DNA of 64,000 nucleotides, from positions 62,001-126,000 of the forward strand of contig NZ_CP135136.1 of assembly GCF_037013735.1 (NCBI RefSeq). The letters run 5' to 3'. The notes below the pieces were generated by a model. That model was given only the letters and a program-made list of their open reading frames with translations. It did no database searches and was not told where the DNA came from. Both the position numbers and the translations under genes were made by a program. Below, one piece after another: positions 38,579 to 45,157 of the stretch (position 1 is its first letter; every line of letters begins with the position of its first letter). The stretch comes from Candidatus Legionella polyplacis. Its GTDB lineage: Bacteria > Pseudomonadota > Gammaproteobacteria > Legionellales > Legionellaceae.

Positions 38579-39508
38579 ATGAACAATAAAACTCTAGAAT
38601 ATTATTCAAAACGACACGAATTTTTTTTGAAAAATATTTTTCATGATATTGATATTCCATCTAAACGTATTAAAAAAGCAATTCTATATACACTTTTCCC
38701 TGGTGGAAAAAGAATAAGACCAATGTTAGTTTATTTATGTGGAGAATTATTTGGAATTAAAAAAAAATCTATATTAGATATTATCGCTGTGTCAATTGAA
38801 TTAATACATTGCTATTCATTAATACATGATGATTTACCATCAATGGATAATGATGATTATCGAAGAGGCAAGCTAAGTTGCCACAAATTCTTTGATGAAG
38901 CAACTGCTATTTTAACTGGAAATGCTATGCAAGCGTTTGCTACTGATTTTCTATTAAAAAAATTATCTAAATTATTAAAACCTAACAAAATAATATCAAT
39001 TGTACATATACTTTTATTAAGTTCTGGATTACAAGGAATAATCAGTGGGCAAAGTTTAGATTTACATATAACAAAAAATCATCACTTAAATAAAAAAACA
39101 TTATATAAAATATACATGTTAAAAACAGAAAAATTAATTTCTGCATGTTTCAAAATGGTTTATAAAATCCCTACAAATCCATCATCCCTAATTATAAAAA
39201 TAGTAAATAAATATGCACATTATTTAAGTTTAGCATTACAAATTCAAAATGATTATTTAGATTTTTATAATAAAAATTTTTCAGGAAAAAAACGATCTTC
39301 AGATTTTATAAACCAAAAAAAGACATTTGCAACACTATATGATAAAAATAAACTAAATAATATTATAAACACATATTTTCAAAAAGCTAAAAATATTATC
39401 CTTCCATTAGGAAAAAAATCTAAAAATTTGATTTTTTTAACAAAAAAATTAGAAAATTATACTAATCCAAATATAATAAACTATAAATATAAACAATCAA
39501 AAAAATAA
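38579..39508 (+). CDS. ispA: Polyprenyl synthetase, IspA-like (farnesyl diphosphate synthase)
   Basis: IspA condenses IPP with DMAPP and GPP to farnesyl diphosphate, feeding ubiquinone and undecaprenyl phosphate synthesis. The 309-residue protein has PGGKRIRPML at 41-50, the first Asp-rich motif HDDLPSMDND at 83-92, and ISGQSLDL. The second Asp-rich motif reads NDYLD at 224-228 where the family has DDxxD, and the following Lys/Asp-rich loop is altered. Activity is likely but possibly changed in chain length or rate. It converges with the ccm operon, ending 8 bp from ccmH. Confidence 0.9.
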   Translation: MNNKTLEYYSKRHEFFLKNIFHDIDIPSKRIKKAILYTLFPGGKRIRPMLVYLCGELFGIKKKSILDIIAVSIELIHCYSLIHDDLPSMDNDDYRRGKLSCHKFFDEATAILTGNAMQAFATDFLLKKLSKLLKPNKIISIVHILLLSSGLQGIISGQSLDLHITKNHHLNKKTLYKIYMLKTEKLISACFKMVYKIPTNPSSLIIKIVNKYAHYLSLALQIQNDYLDFYNKNFSGKKRSSDFINQKKTFATLYDKNKLNNIINTYFQKAKNIILPLGKKSKNLIFLTKKLENYTNPNIINYKYKQSKK

Positions 39509-39516
39509 AAACAATT

Positions 39517-39903
39517 TTATTTATCATATTTTGAATTATATACATATATTATATATATAAACAATCCCAACAACAAAAAAAATACAGGACCAAACCATAA
39601 AATAATAGTTTGAACTGTAATAAATGGATTTAATAATATAAAAGAACCATATTTACTAACTATGTAATTAATAATACTAACATCATTTTCACCATTCATT
39701 ATTAACATATAAATTTTATTTTTTAAATTATTAGAAAATTCTGAATTAGAATTTAATAAATCCTGATTTTGACAAACAAGACACCTAAAGTTTTTTAATA
39801 AATATATAAAACGATCCTTTTCTTGTATTACATGAAAAGGATAAAAAACTTTTGTCATTCCAACCAGCAAAAAAAAAGAAAATATTAAAAATAATCTAAT
39901 CAC
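39517..39903 (-). CDS. ccmH: Cytochrome c maturation protein CcmH (N-terminal domain type)
   Basis: CcmH is a membrane-anchored thiol protein that reduces apocytochrome c so that CcmF can attach heme. The 128-residue protein has a signal-anchor (about 1-20), the redox motif RCLVCQNQD with Cys 41 and 44, the three-helix domain, and a C-terminal membrane segment (about 98-120). The start is GTG. The C-terminal TPR part (CcmI) found in E. coli CcmH is absent. It is the last gene of the ccm operon. Confidence 0.93.
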   Translation of the reverse strand: MIRLFLIFSFFLLVGMTKVFYPFHVIQEKDRFIYLLKNFRCLVCQNQDLLNSNSEFSNNLKNKIYMLIMNGENDVSIINYIVSKYGSFILLNPFITVQTIILWFGPVFFLLLGLFIYIIYVYNSKYDK

Positions 39904-39918
39904 TTTTATAATTTATTA

Positions 39919-40470
39919 TTATAAACTTTTAATTTTCGGCAAAAAAATTGTTTTCCATACTTTCTTGCTTAATTCTCCAACATAACAAATCCTAACAATT
40001 CCATTTTTATCTACTAAAAAAGTAGTAGGAAAATTATAAATTCCCAAATCAATAGATATTTCTCCATTATAATCTGTAATTATAAACTTATAAGGATTTC
40101 CCCAAATAAATAACCATTTTTTTATACTATAAATATCATTTTTATAATTTAAACCATATATATAAAAACCCTTTTTAGATAAAAACATCAATAAATTTCG
40201 TTCCTCAATAGAAGAATCATAATAATTTGTCCATACATTTAATAATGATAAATGTCCTTTCATATTTTTAAATAAACTAATTTTTTTTCCTTTATTAGAA
40301 ATAAATTGATACTTAAATAAATTTTTTCCTAAATATGAACAATAAAACTGTTCTTTTTTAAGAAATAAAGCTTTAAAAAAAAGATATAATAACAAAAAAG
40401 TTAAGATAAAACTTAAACTAAACCAAAAAACTATATTTATTTTCCTAAAAATTTTTTTATATAAAAACAT
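39919..40470 (-). CDS. ccmG: CcmG/DsbE-type thioredoxin-fold protein lacking its CxxC
   Basis: CcmG normally keeps CcmH and apocytochrome reduced in the periplasm. The 183-residue protein has one N-terminal membrane anchor (about 13-35) and the full family scaffold: LSLLNVW, IYGLNYKND, IWGNPYKFIITD, LGIYNFPTTFLVDKNGIVR with the cis-Pro loop. The active site WCxxC is replaced by YYDSS at 83-87; the two Cys codons are now TAT (40219-40221) and TCT (40210-40212). The frame is otherwise open, so this is not an obvious pseudogene. The start overlaps the end of ccmF by 34 bp. Confidence 0.88.
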   Translation of the reverse strand: MFLYKKIFRKINIVFWFSLSFILTFLLLYLFFKALFLKKEQFYCSYLGKNLFKYQFISNKGKKISLFKNMKGHLSLLNVWTNYYDSSIEERNLLMFLSKKGFYIYGLNYKNDIYSIKKWLFIWGNPYKFIITDYNGEISIDLGIYNFPTTFLVDKNGIVRICYVGELSKKVWKTIFLPKIKSL

Positions 40471-42419
40471 AATTTCTTTTTGTTAAATTTTGATAAATAT
40501 GGTGCTATTAATCCAAATAAACCACCACAAAAAATTAATATTCCACCACACCATATCCACCTAATAAATGGTTCATAATAAAAATATATAACCCATTCTG
40601 TATTAGATATAGGATCTCCTAAAGTTATATATATATCACGAAAAAAATTTTTATCAATACCTGCTATGCTTTTTACCATGTTAGTTACATTATAAATACG
40701 TTTTTCTGAATAAATATTTTTTACATAATTATTATTCTTGTATACAAAAAATTGAGCTTTTATACCATGATAATTTGGTCCATACAAAGGCAACTCATCA
40801 AAAAAATAAATTTTGTATCCTGAAAAATAAGCAATGTCTTTTAAATTCATACTAACAATCTCTTGATTCTTATATGCTGAAGAAAGCACAATACCTATTA
40901 ACATAATTGCAATACCAAAATGTGAAATTATCATTCCAAAAAATGAAAATCTTATTTTTTCTTTATTTAAATAATATTTATTTATACGTACCAAAACTAA
41001 TTGTAATAAATTTAAAATAATATAAAATGATAAAGATACCCCTAATAAAGCATAAATTTTAATTACATTAAAAAACAAATATAAAAAAATAAAAGATATA
41101 AAAAAACTTATACAAATAATATATTTAAAATTACATTTCTTTTTGATCAAAAAAACATTATCAAAATATAAATTAATTCCAAAACCCATAATTAATATTA
41201 AAGGTAATATCAAAAAACTAAACATAACATTAAAATATGGAGCTCCAACAGATATTTTTCCATAACCTAAAACATCAATTATAATTGGATATATTGTTCC
41301 TAAAAAAATAGTTATAGTACATGTAATCAACAAAATATTGTTTAATAATAAAATTCTTTCATAAAAACTAAACAAAACATTTCTTTTACTTGCAAAGAAA
41401 AAATTTTTTATTTTTAAGGAAAAAAATATTAAAAAACAAATTACTAATAAAAAGAAAAAACATAAAATATAAAAACTTTTCTTAGGATCTATAGAAAAAG
41501 AATGTACTGATATTAAAATTCCTGATCTTACTAAAAAAGTACCTATAAGACTTAAAAAAAAAGAAACAACAACCAACAAAATACTCCTAATACTTAAATA
41601 TTTTTTTTTCTCATCTATTAATAAAGAATGCAATAAAGCAGTGCCAATCAACCAAGGCATTAAAGAAATATTCTCCACCGGATCCCAAAACCACCATCCA
41701 CCCCATCCAAGCTCCCTATAAGCCCACCAACTACCTAAAATAATACCTATAGTCAAAAAACACCATGAAAATAAAACTAAAGGTCTTATTAATTCCCACC
41801 AAAATATTTCTTTTCTATTTTCCTTAAAAAATAAGATTGTCATAACAAAAGAAAAAATTATAGAAAATCCAACATATCCTATATAAAGAATAGGAGGATG
41901 TAATAAAAAACCTACATCTTGTAATATAGGATTTAGATCAAATCCATTGGAAAAATGTAAAAAAAATTGACGTTCAAATGGATTAGATTCCAATAATAAA
42001 AAAACAAAAAATCCAATACTTAAAACCCCCAATACAACTAACGAATAAAGTCTATTTATTAGTTTAAATCCCATAGAAAAATAACTAATTATTAACATCC
42101 AAAAACTAAGTATTAAAATCCAAAATAATATAGATCCTTCATGACCACTCCAAACAGCACACACTTTATAAAACCATGGTAAATATAAACTAGAATTAGT
42201 TAATACATAAGTTACAGTAAAATCATTTTTTACGAAACATAAAACAAGACAAAAATAAGAAAAAAAAACAAATAAAAACTGCATTCTTGCATATAAAAAA
42301 ATTATTTTTCCCAAAAAAACCTTATTTTCTTTCCAAATTTTAAAAATAGGAACCACAACAATTAGTATAGAAAATACTAAAGCAATAAACAAAAAAAATA
42401 AACCAATTTCAGCAATCAT
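40437..42419 (-). CDS. ccmF: Cytochrome c heme lyase subunit CcmF
   Basis: CcmF is the large membrane subunit that attaches heme from CcmE to the CxxCH of apocytochrome c. The 660-residue protein has about 15 hydrophobic segments, the WWD signature ELGWGGWWFWDPVENISLMPW, the HPPILYIGYVGFSI segment with a conserved His, and a large periplasmic domain near the C-terminus. It appears intact (E. coli 647). Its end overlaps ccmG. Confidence 0.97.
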   Translation of the reverse strand: MIAEIGLFFLFIALVFSILIVVVPIFKIWKENKVFLGKIIFLYARMQFLFVFFSYFCLVLCFVKNDFTVTYVLTNSSLYLPWFYKVCAVWSGHEGSILFWILILSFWMLIISYFSMGFKLINRLYSLVVLGVLSIGFFVFLLLESNPFERQFFLHFSNGFDLNPILQDVGFLLHPPILYIGYVGFSIIFSFVMTILFFKENRKEIFWWELIRPLVLFSWCFLTIGIILGSWWAYRELGWGGWWFWDPVENISLMPWLIGTALLHSLLIDEKKKYLSIRSILLVVVSFFLSLIGTFLVRSGILISVHSFSIDPKKSFYILCFFFLLVICFLIFFSLKIKNFFFASKRNVLFSFYERILLLNNILLITCTITIFLGTIYPIIIDVLGYGKISVGAPYFNVMFSFLILPLILIMGFGINLYFDNVFLIKKKCNFKYIICISFFISFIFLYLFFNVIKIYALLGVSLSFYIILNLLQLVLVRINKYYLNKEKIRFSFFGMIISHFGIAIMLIGIVLSSAYKNQEIVSMNLKDIAYFSGYKIYFFDELPLYGPNYHGIKAQFFVYKNNNYVKNIYSEKRIYNVTNMVKSIAGIDKNFFRDIYITLGDPISNTEWVIYFYYEPFIRWIWCGGILIFCGGLFGLIAPYLSKFNKKKLCFYIKKFLGK

Positions 42420-42463: not shown

Positions 42464-42886
42464 TTACTTATTAAAATTAAAAATCTTTTTTTTATAAGGT
42501 ATATAATTAGCACTATGTTTAGATAAAACTTCTGTTGCTACAAAAATCTTTTTACCATAAATAATTTTACCCTTTACTACTACTTCTTGCCCTTCCTTAA
42601 ATAAATTTGGCAAAATTCCATTATAAATTACTGTAAAAGTATTTCTATAATCAGTTAATCGAAACTTAACAAAAAATCTAGATCCTCTAAAAATACTATT
42701 TTTTACAACCACTCCACCTAAACGAATAGTACAATTTTTTTGAAATTTTTTGTGTAAAATCTGTGTTGGAGTATAAAAAAAATTAACATTATTTTTTAAT
42801 AAAATTAATGTTACACTTACTAATAAAGTAATTAAAATAAAAGTAAAAAAAACTAATAACATTTTATTTATTTTTATCCTACTCAT
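42464..42886 (-). CDS. ccmE: Heme chaperone CcmE
   Basis: CcmE binds heme covalently in the periplasm and passes it to CcmF. The 140-residue protein has an N-terminal membrane anchor (about 9-30), the OB-fold (RLGGVVVKNSIFRGS, FTVIYNGILPNLFKEGQEVVVKG), and the heme-binding His 124 with Tyr 128 in LSKHSANY, close to the family's HDENY. Its ATG overlaps the ccmD stop (ATGA), indicating translational coupling. Confidence 0.96.
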   Translation of the reverse strand: MSRIKINKMLLVFFTFILITLLVSVTLILLKNNVNFFYTPTQILHKKFQKNCTIRLGGVVVKNSIFRGSRFFVKFRLTDYRNTFTVIYNGILPNLFKEGQEVVVKGKIIYGKKIFVATEVLSKHSANYIPYKKKIFNFNK

Positions 42887-43053
42887 CTTTTATTTTTTTT
42901 TAAATAAAATTTATAAATTTTACTTTTTAATTTTAAATATTTTATTTTTAAAATAAAAAAATTAATCAATAATGTAACAACCACTATAATATAAGAAATC
43001 CATACATAAAATGTATAATCTCCCATTTTAAAAACAATAAAAATTTTTCTCAT
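42883..43053 (-). CDS. ccmD: Heme exporter protein CcmD (very short)
   Basis: CcmD is a one-helix membrane protein that helps release holo-CcmE from CcmABC. This 56-residue frame sits exactly between ccmC and ccmE with ATGA overlaps at both ends. It contains MGDYTFYVWISYIIVVVTLL, the family's M-G-x-x-x-Y-V-W-x-x-Y pattern leading into a single membrane helix, then a Lys-rich cytoplasmic tail. The ATG at 43051-43053 overlaps the ccmC stop; Met 10 is a possible alternative start. Confidence 0.93.
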   Translation of the reverse strand: MRKIFIVFKMGDYTFYVWISYIIVVVTLLINFFILKIKYLKLKSKIYKFYLKKNKR

Positions 43054-43799
43054 AATTTCTTTAATATAATAAGAGATTTAATCCATTTAACATCATATTC
43101 GTGTAAAATAATTTCATAACAAATTTTTTGAAATACAAACCAAAAACAATAACTAATAAATCCTAATAATGTCATTATTAATGGATAATACATGCTAAAG
43201 GTAATTTTAGAACCGTAAAAAAGGGAAAAAGTAGACCCTTGATGCAAAGTACTCCACCAAATAACAGAATAATGAATAATCGGTAAATCAACTAAACCAA
43301 CTAATATCAAAATAGATACTATCTTAAAATTCTTTTCTCTATTTACATAATTACTATTACCAACAATAAAAATTGATAAATATATAAAAAATAAAATTAA
43401 TTCTGAAGTTAAACGAGCATCCCAAACCCACCAAGTTCCCCAAATTGGTTTCCCCCATATACTACCAGTTATAAGGGTTAAAAATGTCATTAAAACACCT
43501 AAAACAACACAACTATCCAATAAAATAATAATTATTCTAATTTCTAAAGTAAGAAAAATCAATGCCAAAAAAGCCATAATAATATAAATCATTATAGATA
43601 AAAAAGCAATTGGTACATGTACATACATAATTCTAAAAGCATCTCCTTGATAATAGTCTGATGGAGAAAAAAATAATCCACATAAAAAACCTAAAATCAA
43701 AAAAATACAAAAAATAATATTAAATCGTTTAGACCATCTTTCAGCAAATAAATAAGTTCTTTCAGTATAAAAACGCGATTTAAAAAATAACTTAAACAT
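43050..43799 (-). CDS. ccmC: Heme exporter/CcmE heme-loading protein CcmC
   Basis: CcmC loads heme onto CcmE. The 249-residue protein has six membrane segments, the WWD domain GKPIWGTWWVWDARLTSELIL, and the flanking heme-ligand His residues in MYVHVPIA and IIHYSVIWWSTLHQG. It appears intact. It is followed with an ATGA overlap by ccmD. Confidence 0.96.
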   Translation of the reverse strand: MFKLFFKSRFYTERTYLFAERWSKRFNIIFCIFLILGFLCGLFFSPSDYYQGDAFRIMYVHVPIAFLSIMIYIIMAFLALIFLTLEIRIIIILLDSCVVLGVLMTFLTLITGSIWGKPIWGTWWVWDARLTSELILFFIYLSIFIVGNSNYVNREKNFKIVSILILVGLVDLPIIHYSVIWWSTLHQGSTFSLFYGSKITFSMYYPLIMTLLGFISYCFWFVFQKICYEIILHEYDVKWIKSLIILKKL

Positions 43800-43866: not shown

Positions 43867-44547
43867 TTAATCATTAAAATTAATACGAATAACTTCTGTG
43901 ATAACAAATGGTAAAAAACTCATAAATAACAAAGAAATTAATAATAGAGAAATTAAATAAATTCCAAAAGGAGAATGATTCATACTACTACTTATGATAG
44001 TACTTCCCAAAATAATTACTGGAACACTTAGTGGAAAAAAAACTATAGAAATCAATGCTCCCTTCTGAGAATGTTTTTTTACCAAAGCAGAAGCAAATGC
44101 TGCAAGAAAAAAAATAGTTGGACTTCCAAATACAAAACTTAATATTATAATGAATAAGTTATAAATATTGAAATTAAACAATAGTGCCAAAAATGGACAA
44201 AATATTAAAATTGATAATAAATTTAAAAAACAATAAGAAAAGATTTTTGCACTTACCATCAATACCAATGGATAACCAGATACTAACCATTGTTCAATAA
44301 CACCATATTCATAATCCTGCATAAATAATACAGATGAAGATAATAAACACATTAACAATATTGATATCCAAAATAAACCAGGAGAAATACTTACAATCGA
44401 TACATATTCTGAAGATAAAGTTAAAGGAAAAAATATATTAACCATTAAAAAAAACAAAACAGAGTATAAAATAACACTTGGTTGTCTCATACATAATAAT
44501 AATTCACGATTTATTTGTCTTAAAAACAATATCCTTACATTTATCAT
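43867..44547 (-). CDS. ccmB: Cytochrome c maturation ABC transporter permease CcmB
   Basis: CcmB is the membrane partner of the ATPase CcmA; the complex releases holo-CcmE. The 226-residue protein has about six hydrophobic segments and family text such as FPLTLSSEY, LLSSSVLFMQDYEYGVIEQWLVS and FPLSVPVIILGS. Its start overlaps the end of ccmA by 44 bp, which implies coupled translation. Confidence 0.94.
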   Translation of the reverse strand: MINVRILFLRQINRELLLCMRQPSVILYSVLFFLMVNIFFPLTLSSEYVSIVSISPGLFWISILLMCLLSSSVLFMQDYEYGVIEQWLVSGYPLVLMVSAKIFSYCFLNLLSILIFCPFLALLFNFNIYNLFIIILSFVFGSPTIFFLAAFASALVKKHSQKGALISIVFFPLSVPVIILGSTIISSSMNHSPFGIYLISLLLISLLFMSFLPFVITEVIRINFND

Positions 44548-45157
44548 ATCTTTTATTTAAAAAATATTCCAAATAATTAACTTTTTTCAAAACAATATCC
44601 TGATGAGATACCAATATAATCATTCCACCACGACTTAAATGAGTAAGTATAATTTTTTTTATGAAAATAATCATTTTCTTATCTAAAGAGACAAACGGTT
44701 CATCTAATAGCCAAAATTTAGCATTCGTAATTAAAATTTTTAACAAGGAAACAAGGCGCTTTTGCCCTATAGACAAATAGTAACATAAATCATCATAAAA
44801 ATCTTGCAAATTAAATTGTTTCAATATTTTTTTATAATCTACTGTAAAATTAAATAAATGTATATCAAAAAAAATATTTTCTTTTACAGTTAATAATGGA
44901 GAAAACCCTAATTTATGCCCAACAAAACAAATATTTTTTTGATATAAAAATAAATTATCTAAGATATTTGTACCATTATATAAAATATATCCATTTTCAG
45001 GGTGGAAAATACCTGATATCACTTTTAATAAAGTCGTTTTGCCAACTCCATTATCTCCTTTTAAATGCAATAATTGACCATTATCTATGCAAAAATTTAC
45101 ATTCTCAAAAAGAAATTTATCCGTATAACCAAAATCTAATTCTTTAACTTCAAGCAT
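44504..45157 (-). CDS. ccmA: Cytochrome c maturation ABC transporter ATPase CcmA
   Basis: CcmA powers release of heme-loaded CcmE from CcmCD. The 217-residue protein has Walker A GDNGVGKTTLLKVISG near residue 34, an ABC signature altered to YLSIGQKRLVSLLKIL (the usual LSAGQQRR), and Walker B FWLLDEPFVSLDKK, then the switch His in LVSHQD. It is the first gene of the eight-gene ccmABCDEFGH operon, in which most junctions overlap or are very short. Confidence 0.95.
   Translation of the reverse strand: MLEVKELDFGYTDKFLFENVNFCIDNGQLLHLKGDNGVGKTTLLKVISGIFHPENGYILYNGTNILDNLFLYQKNICFVGHKLGFSPLLTVKENIFFDIHLFNFTVDYKKILKQFNLQDFYDDLCYYLSIGQKRLVSLLKILITNAKFWLLDEPFVSLDKKMIIFIKKIILTHLSRGGMIILVSHQDIVLKKVNYLEYFLNKRYDKCKDIVFKTNKS

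Follow-up and report, generated by a model that had tools for sequence, protein, structure and literature searches.

The window analysed here, a stretch of 64,000 nucleotides, covers bases 62001-126000 of the single 530,980-bp contig of a symbiont genome rated 99.9% complete, and carries on its minus strand a ccm operon in the order ccmA-B-C-(D)-E-F-G-H. The ccmA (44504..45157) and ccmC (43050..43799) genes score above the cut-offs of TIGR01189 and TIGR01191, respectively, ccmB (43867..44547) matches PF03379 and ccmE (42464..42886) matches PF03100. An open frame between ccmE and ccmC (42886..43053, minus strand), encoding a short one-helix membrane protein, is a candidate ccmD assigned by its position alone. 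The heme lyase gene ccmF (40437..42419; PF16327 and PF01578) has an intact WWD region, and its last bases are shared with the beginning of ccmG, which lies between ccmF and ccmH (39517..39903; PF03918, E=8.2e-32), a gene order identical to that of Legionella. The preliminary description of this DNA had called the operon otherwise intact apart from CcmG, and this holds for the residues it named, since the CxxC of CcmH (C41 and C44) and the heme-binding H124 of CcmE are both kept, but not for the gene set as a whole, given that the gene for the TPR-containing protein CcmI, which follows ccmH in Legionella, is missing at this locus (window 39480-39520). The gene next to ccmH in this genome is instead a plus-strand, prenyl-synthase-like gene.

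The ccmG (dsbE) gene (39919..40470, minus strand) encodes a protein of 183 amino acids, with an N-terminal membrane helix followed by a thioredoxin-fold domain without CxxC. This ORF is matched by the CcmG/DsbE profile TIGR00385 with E=5.7e-29 and 100.9 bits, a score that falls short of the curated cut-off of 123.15 bits, and a single membrane anchor is predicted in the hydrophobic segment at about residues 2-36. As the preliminary description had noticed, both active-site cysteines are gone: the former WCxxC (40210..40224, minus strand) now reads Y83-Y84-D85-S86-S87, positions 40210-40221 coding for residues 84-87, the equivalent of the CxxC. A search for WCxxC at the level of DNA patterns gave many chance-like matches and is uninformative by itself. 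A single base separates each of the codons at the two former cysteine sites, TAT and TCT, from TGT, as had been pointed out, but the active site has been altered by more than two point changes, because W83>Y, S82>N, G146>N/S and E149>T replacements were also found. The cis-Pro loop (40024..40029, minus strand), reported earlier as well kept, does retain P148, a residue conserved in 100% of 86 CcmGs from relatives; within its GxPET motif the proline and the next threonine are kept, and G146 and E149 are changed, the latter, conserved in 98.8% of the same relatives, being replaced by T in both symbionts compared. Also kept is E90, the buried glutamate six residues past the first cysteine position, which is highly conserved in CcmG/ResA/StoA (PMC3961690).

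The comparison of symbionts included one congener, a sister genome of 529,746 bp. The louse Polyplax serrata is the host of Legionella polyplacis PsAG (PMC12175528), and the hosts on record for Legionella polyplacis are P. serrata and P. spinulosa (PMC9376444); the genome containing the window would be that of a sister symbiont, perhaps from another Polyplax host. CcmG of the sister genome has the same YYDSS, encoded by the same codons, so that the WCxxC typical of CcmG/DsbE is replaced in both symbionts, whereas the CxxC is intact in all 87 other Legionellaceae CcmGs covering the site, and both cysteines are kept in 80 of the 80 ccmG loci retrieved from genome contigs of relatives, a set that overlaps the 87. 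The loss is therefore fixed and older than the split of the two symbionts. A sequencing or assembly error behind YYDSS can practically be dismissed, since an independent genome, 88% identical at the protein level, has the very same codons and other active-site residues of CcmG have changed coherently. The comparison after the loss covers these two lineages, each as a species-level genome, and the order-level survey comprised 143 genomes, every one from the same family, so it holds no outgroup with independent losses.

CcmG is still preserved by purifying selection. Between the two symbionts the dN/dS of ccmG was 0.175 (bootstrap 95% 0.093-0.330), a value obtained by a counting method and approximate on so AT-rich a genome, and within the range of the neighbouring genes, mostly about 0.1-0.3. 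Because both species share YYDSS, this value reflects the time after the loss. The ratio of divergence from Legionella to divergence within Legionella was 2.15 for CcmG, on a par with CcmE (2.13), CcmF (2.57) and CcmH (2.19), giving no sign of relaxed selection. Consistent with a maintained protein, the AlphaFold model of CcmG, built with 30 sequences, reaches a pLDDT of 85.4, and the nine PDB entries that match it best are without exception CcmG structures, led by those from P. aeruginosa and E. coli.

The changes in CcmG are concentrated around the former active site. When the soluble-domain positions with at least 95% conservation among relatives were split by location, the active-site loops had changes at 7 of their 11 positions and the rest of the domain at 3 of 19 (Fisher p=0.015); the loop positions for this test were hand-picked from the thioredoxin fold. 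Residues S82, W83, C84, C87, D111, G146 and E149 of these loops are replaced in both symbionts, and the fold residues G106, Y109, W119, N125, P126, D133, G143, P148, D154, G157, G165 and W172 are kept. These data bear on the view that ccmG is simply an eroding remnant without function, held in frame by chance or through its overlap with ccmF. Such decay would fit a highly reduced genome in which the catalytic residues of CcmG, CcmI at the ccm locus, DsbD and DsbB have all gone, and "Ca. A. viridis", another reduced endosymbiont, is reported to have ccmABCEFH but not ccmG (PMC11549363). Nevertheless, we consider it improbable, given the dN/dS with its upper bound of 0.33, the lack of stops in ccmG of both genomes, a divergence ratio equal to those of CcmE, CcmF and CcmH, and the retention of the fold-defining residues.

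DsbD/CcdA supplies electrons to CcmG, and DsbB re-oxidises DsbA. Family profile searches, on which the absences given here rest, gave no match to DsbD_TM in this nearly complete genome and no match in either symbiont to DsbD_2, a family that 38 of the 42 sampled Legionellaceae have, or to DsbB, which occurs in 36 of the 42; by the two DsbD searches, then, the electron supply expected for a CcmG/DsbE protein is lacking. The only proteins matching the thioredoxin profile in each symbiont are a TrxA-like protein and a DsbA2-type oxidoreductase. The latter (contig positions 492306-493100 in the genome that contains the window) keeps CVHC and the cis-Thr-Pro, has a dN/dS of 0.086 and, with both the DsbB and DsbD families absent from the two symbionts, appears as an orphan Dsb enzyme with a normal Legionella active site. 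Since it is kept and under selection, an oxidant may persist. No second CcmG/TlpA was found in this genome by redoxin family searches, in which the remaining matches proved to be an AhpC-type peroxiredoxin and a leaderless redoxin-like protein.

Targets for the maturation system do exist. A triheme cytochrome and an adjoining CoxB-cytochrome c fusion, encoded beside coxA (contig ~287840-290711), together hold four CxxCH sites and are the only cytochrome-like frames with this motif; the other CxxCH matches fall in a ribosomal protein L31-like protein, in DnaJ proteins or outside long frames. Both targets are under purifying selection (dN/dS of 0.138 for the triheme cytochrome and 0.105 for the fusion). 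The idea that no c-type cytochrome is left to mature, under which the loss in CcmG would be plain decay, is contradicted by these four sites in two proteins. In the same CxxCH search no cytochrome c1 motif was seen, so the triheme protein may serve as the route from quinol to oxidase without a bc1 complex.

We propose, with a probability of roughly 0.6, that once the Dsb relay had been lost the thiols of CcmG became useless, and that the fixed, redox-dead protein is probably kept as a thiol-independent apocytochrome holdase or as a scaffold for CcmF and CcmH. The periplasmic thiol relay would have been dismantled in the ancestor of the louse symbionts by loss of DsbD/CcdA and DsbB. Recycling of the CcmG dithiol would have become impossible without DsbD, and without DsbB the heme-binding cysteines of apocytochromes would have been oxidised less. 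With the CxxC serving no purpose, the active-site surface of CcmG could then have drifted or been remodelled, as the clustering of changes suggests. The selection still seen on CcmG would, judging from other bacteria, reflect a thiol-independent job, which could be to bind apocytochrome c, to keep CcmF and CcmH joined in the ligation module, or both. Where apocytochrome cysteines are nevertheless oxidised, any reduction would fall to the CxxC of CcmH, together with small thiols or another donor. Two observations count against the proposal: the kept DsbA2-type protein may still provide an oxidant, and the retention of the CcmH CxxC implies some thiol chemistry.

The preliminary description had left a choice between reduction through CcmH alone or another reductant and a structural or chaperone role for CcmG. 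A CcmG that is kept although redox-dead is backed by the purifying selection, the fixation in two species, the retained fold and the presence of cytochrome targets. The absence of DsbD and DsbB accounts for the dispensability of the CcmG cysteines and favours the structural or chaperone option. We regard it as an even chance that these symbionts mature multiheme c-type cytochromes although no dedicated transmembrane system brings in thiol reductant, and that CcmG is retained there solely because it has an essential function independent of thiols.

Two other thiol routes have to be weighed. In one, a different donor would reduce apocytochrome or CcmH, with CcmG as an accessory. This donor could be the DsbA2-type protein, now deprived of DsbB and DsbD, or thiols of the host or the symbiont, such as glutathione and cysteine. 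The intact CVHC of the DsbA2-type protein and the retained CxxC of CcmH speak for this, as does the finding that maturation with a Cys-to-Ser CcmG in S. oneidensis is improved by small thiols (PMC8782879), and it is compatible with the holdase/scaffold explanation. However, it has no transporter or donor to name, and the active site of the DsbA2-type protein gives no sign of a shift in role, being the same as in Legionella, where relatives have CIHC, CVHC or CGHC (most CIHC or CVHC); with this dipeptide unchanged, a switch of DsbA2 to a new role was rejected, and we consider the other-donor route unlikely. In the other, C44 (40339..40341) and C162 (39985..39987, both minus strand) would form a relocated dithiol, acting as a substitute redox or structural pair. 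They are the only cysteines common to the two symbiont CcmGs, C44 being absent from aligned Legionella CcmGs, with S as the normal residue, and C162 standing where 96.5% of relatives have R. Still, a cysteine is conserved between the two genomes 88% of the time anyway, the two residues are 118 positions apart, with C44 near the membrane, and DsbD, which could reduce them, is absent, all of which makes this pair very improbable.

A thiol-independent role for CcmG has precedents. An apocytochrome c holdase role has been shown for CcmG of R. capsulatus. In E. coli, loss of CcmG abolishes cytochrome c and is rescued neither by reductant nor by removal of DsbA, while a Cys-to-Ser CcmG gives low-level cytochrome c that thiols restore to the wild-type level (PMC3601427). 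In S. oneidensis ccmG is essential and CcmG C74S has no detectable defect; cysteine improves maturation when a dsbD ccmG double mutant is supplied with C74S, but does not permit growth if CcmG is missing (PMC8782879). Laboratory Cys-to-Ser mutants thus indicate that CcmG as a body is essential, its thiols being dispensable under some conditions. As for the oxidising side, loss of DsbA/DsbB compensates for loss of ccdA in R. capsulatus, oxidation of apocytochrome competes with heme attachment in E. coli, where apocytochrome left unoxidised can do without DsbD and without the redox activity of CcmG/H, and an E. coli dsbA dsbD double mutant still forms, under aerobic conditions, about half as much cytochrome as the wild type (PMC3420020).

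Whether CcmG acts chiefly as a reductase or as a holdase/scaffold for apocytochromes has long been a question in System I, as has the need for apocytochromes to pass through oxidation and re-reduction before heme is attached. The louse symbionts look like a natural version of this experiment: with DsbD and DsbB gone, the CcmG cysteines were lost and the protein stayed. If the proposed reading is true, this would be a natural separation of the holdase/scaffold role of CcmG from its reductase role. The natural thiol-less CcmG offers direct test material and may represent an intermediate on the way to systems that lack CcmG, like that of plant mitochondria.

Compared with the System I CcmG/DsbE proteins of E. 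coli (2B1K) and P. aeruginosa (3KH7), the symbiont protein agrees in its fold and membrane anchor, in being encoded between ccmF and ccmH, and in the cis-Pro and most residues of the fold, but lacks the WCxxC, the glutamate of the cis-Pro loop and a DsbD partner in the genome. The Cys-to-Ser variants made in the laboratory (E. coli; R. capsulatus; S. oneidensis C74S) are likewise thiol-less and yet support or interact with apocytochrome (PMC3601427, PMC8782879), and the symbionts look like their evolutionary counterpart, with the relay lost, the thiols lost and the body kept; the symbiont form differs in that it arose in nature, has become fixed, has changed at further residues besides the cysteines and occurs in genomes that have also lost DsbD and DsbB. 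Maturation also proceeds without CcmG thiol chemistry in plant-mitochondrial System I and in System I* (PMC3601427), although CcmG is undetected in those systems, whereas the symbionts keep a Cys-less one. Similarly, the respiratory endosymbiont "Ca. A. viridis" has kept CcmH, within ccmABCEFH, without a CcmG redox function (PMC11549363), but there ccmG is unlisted in the published description, whereas the louse symbionts retain a redox-dead CcmG.
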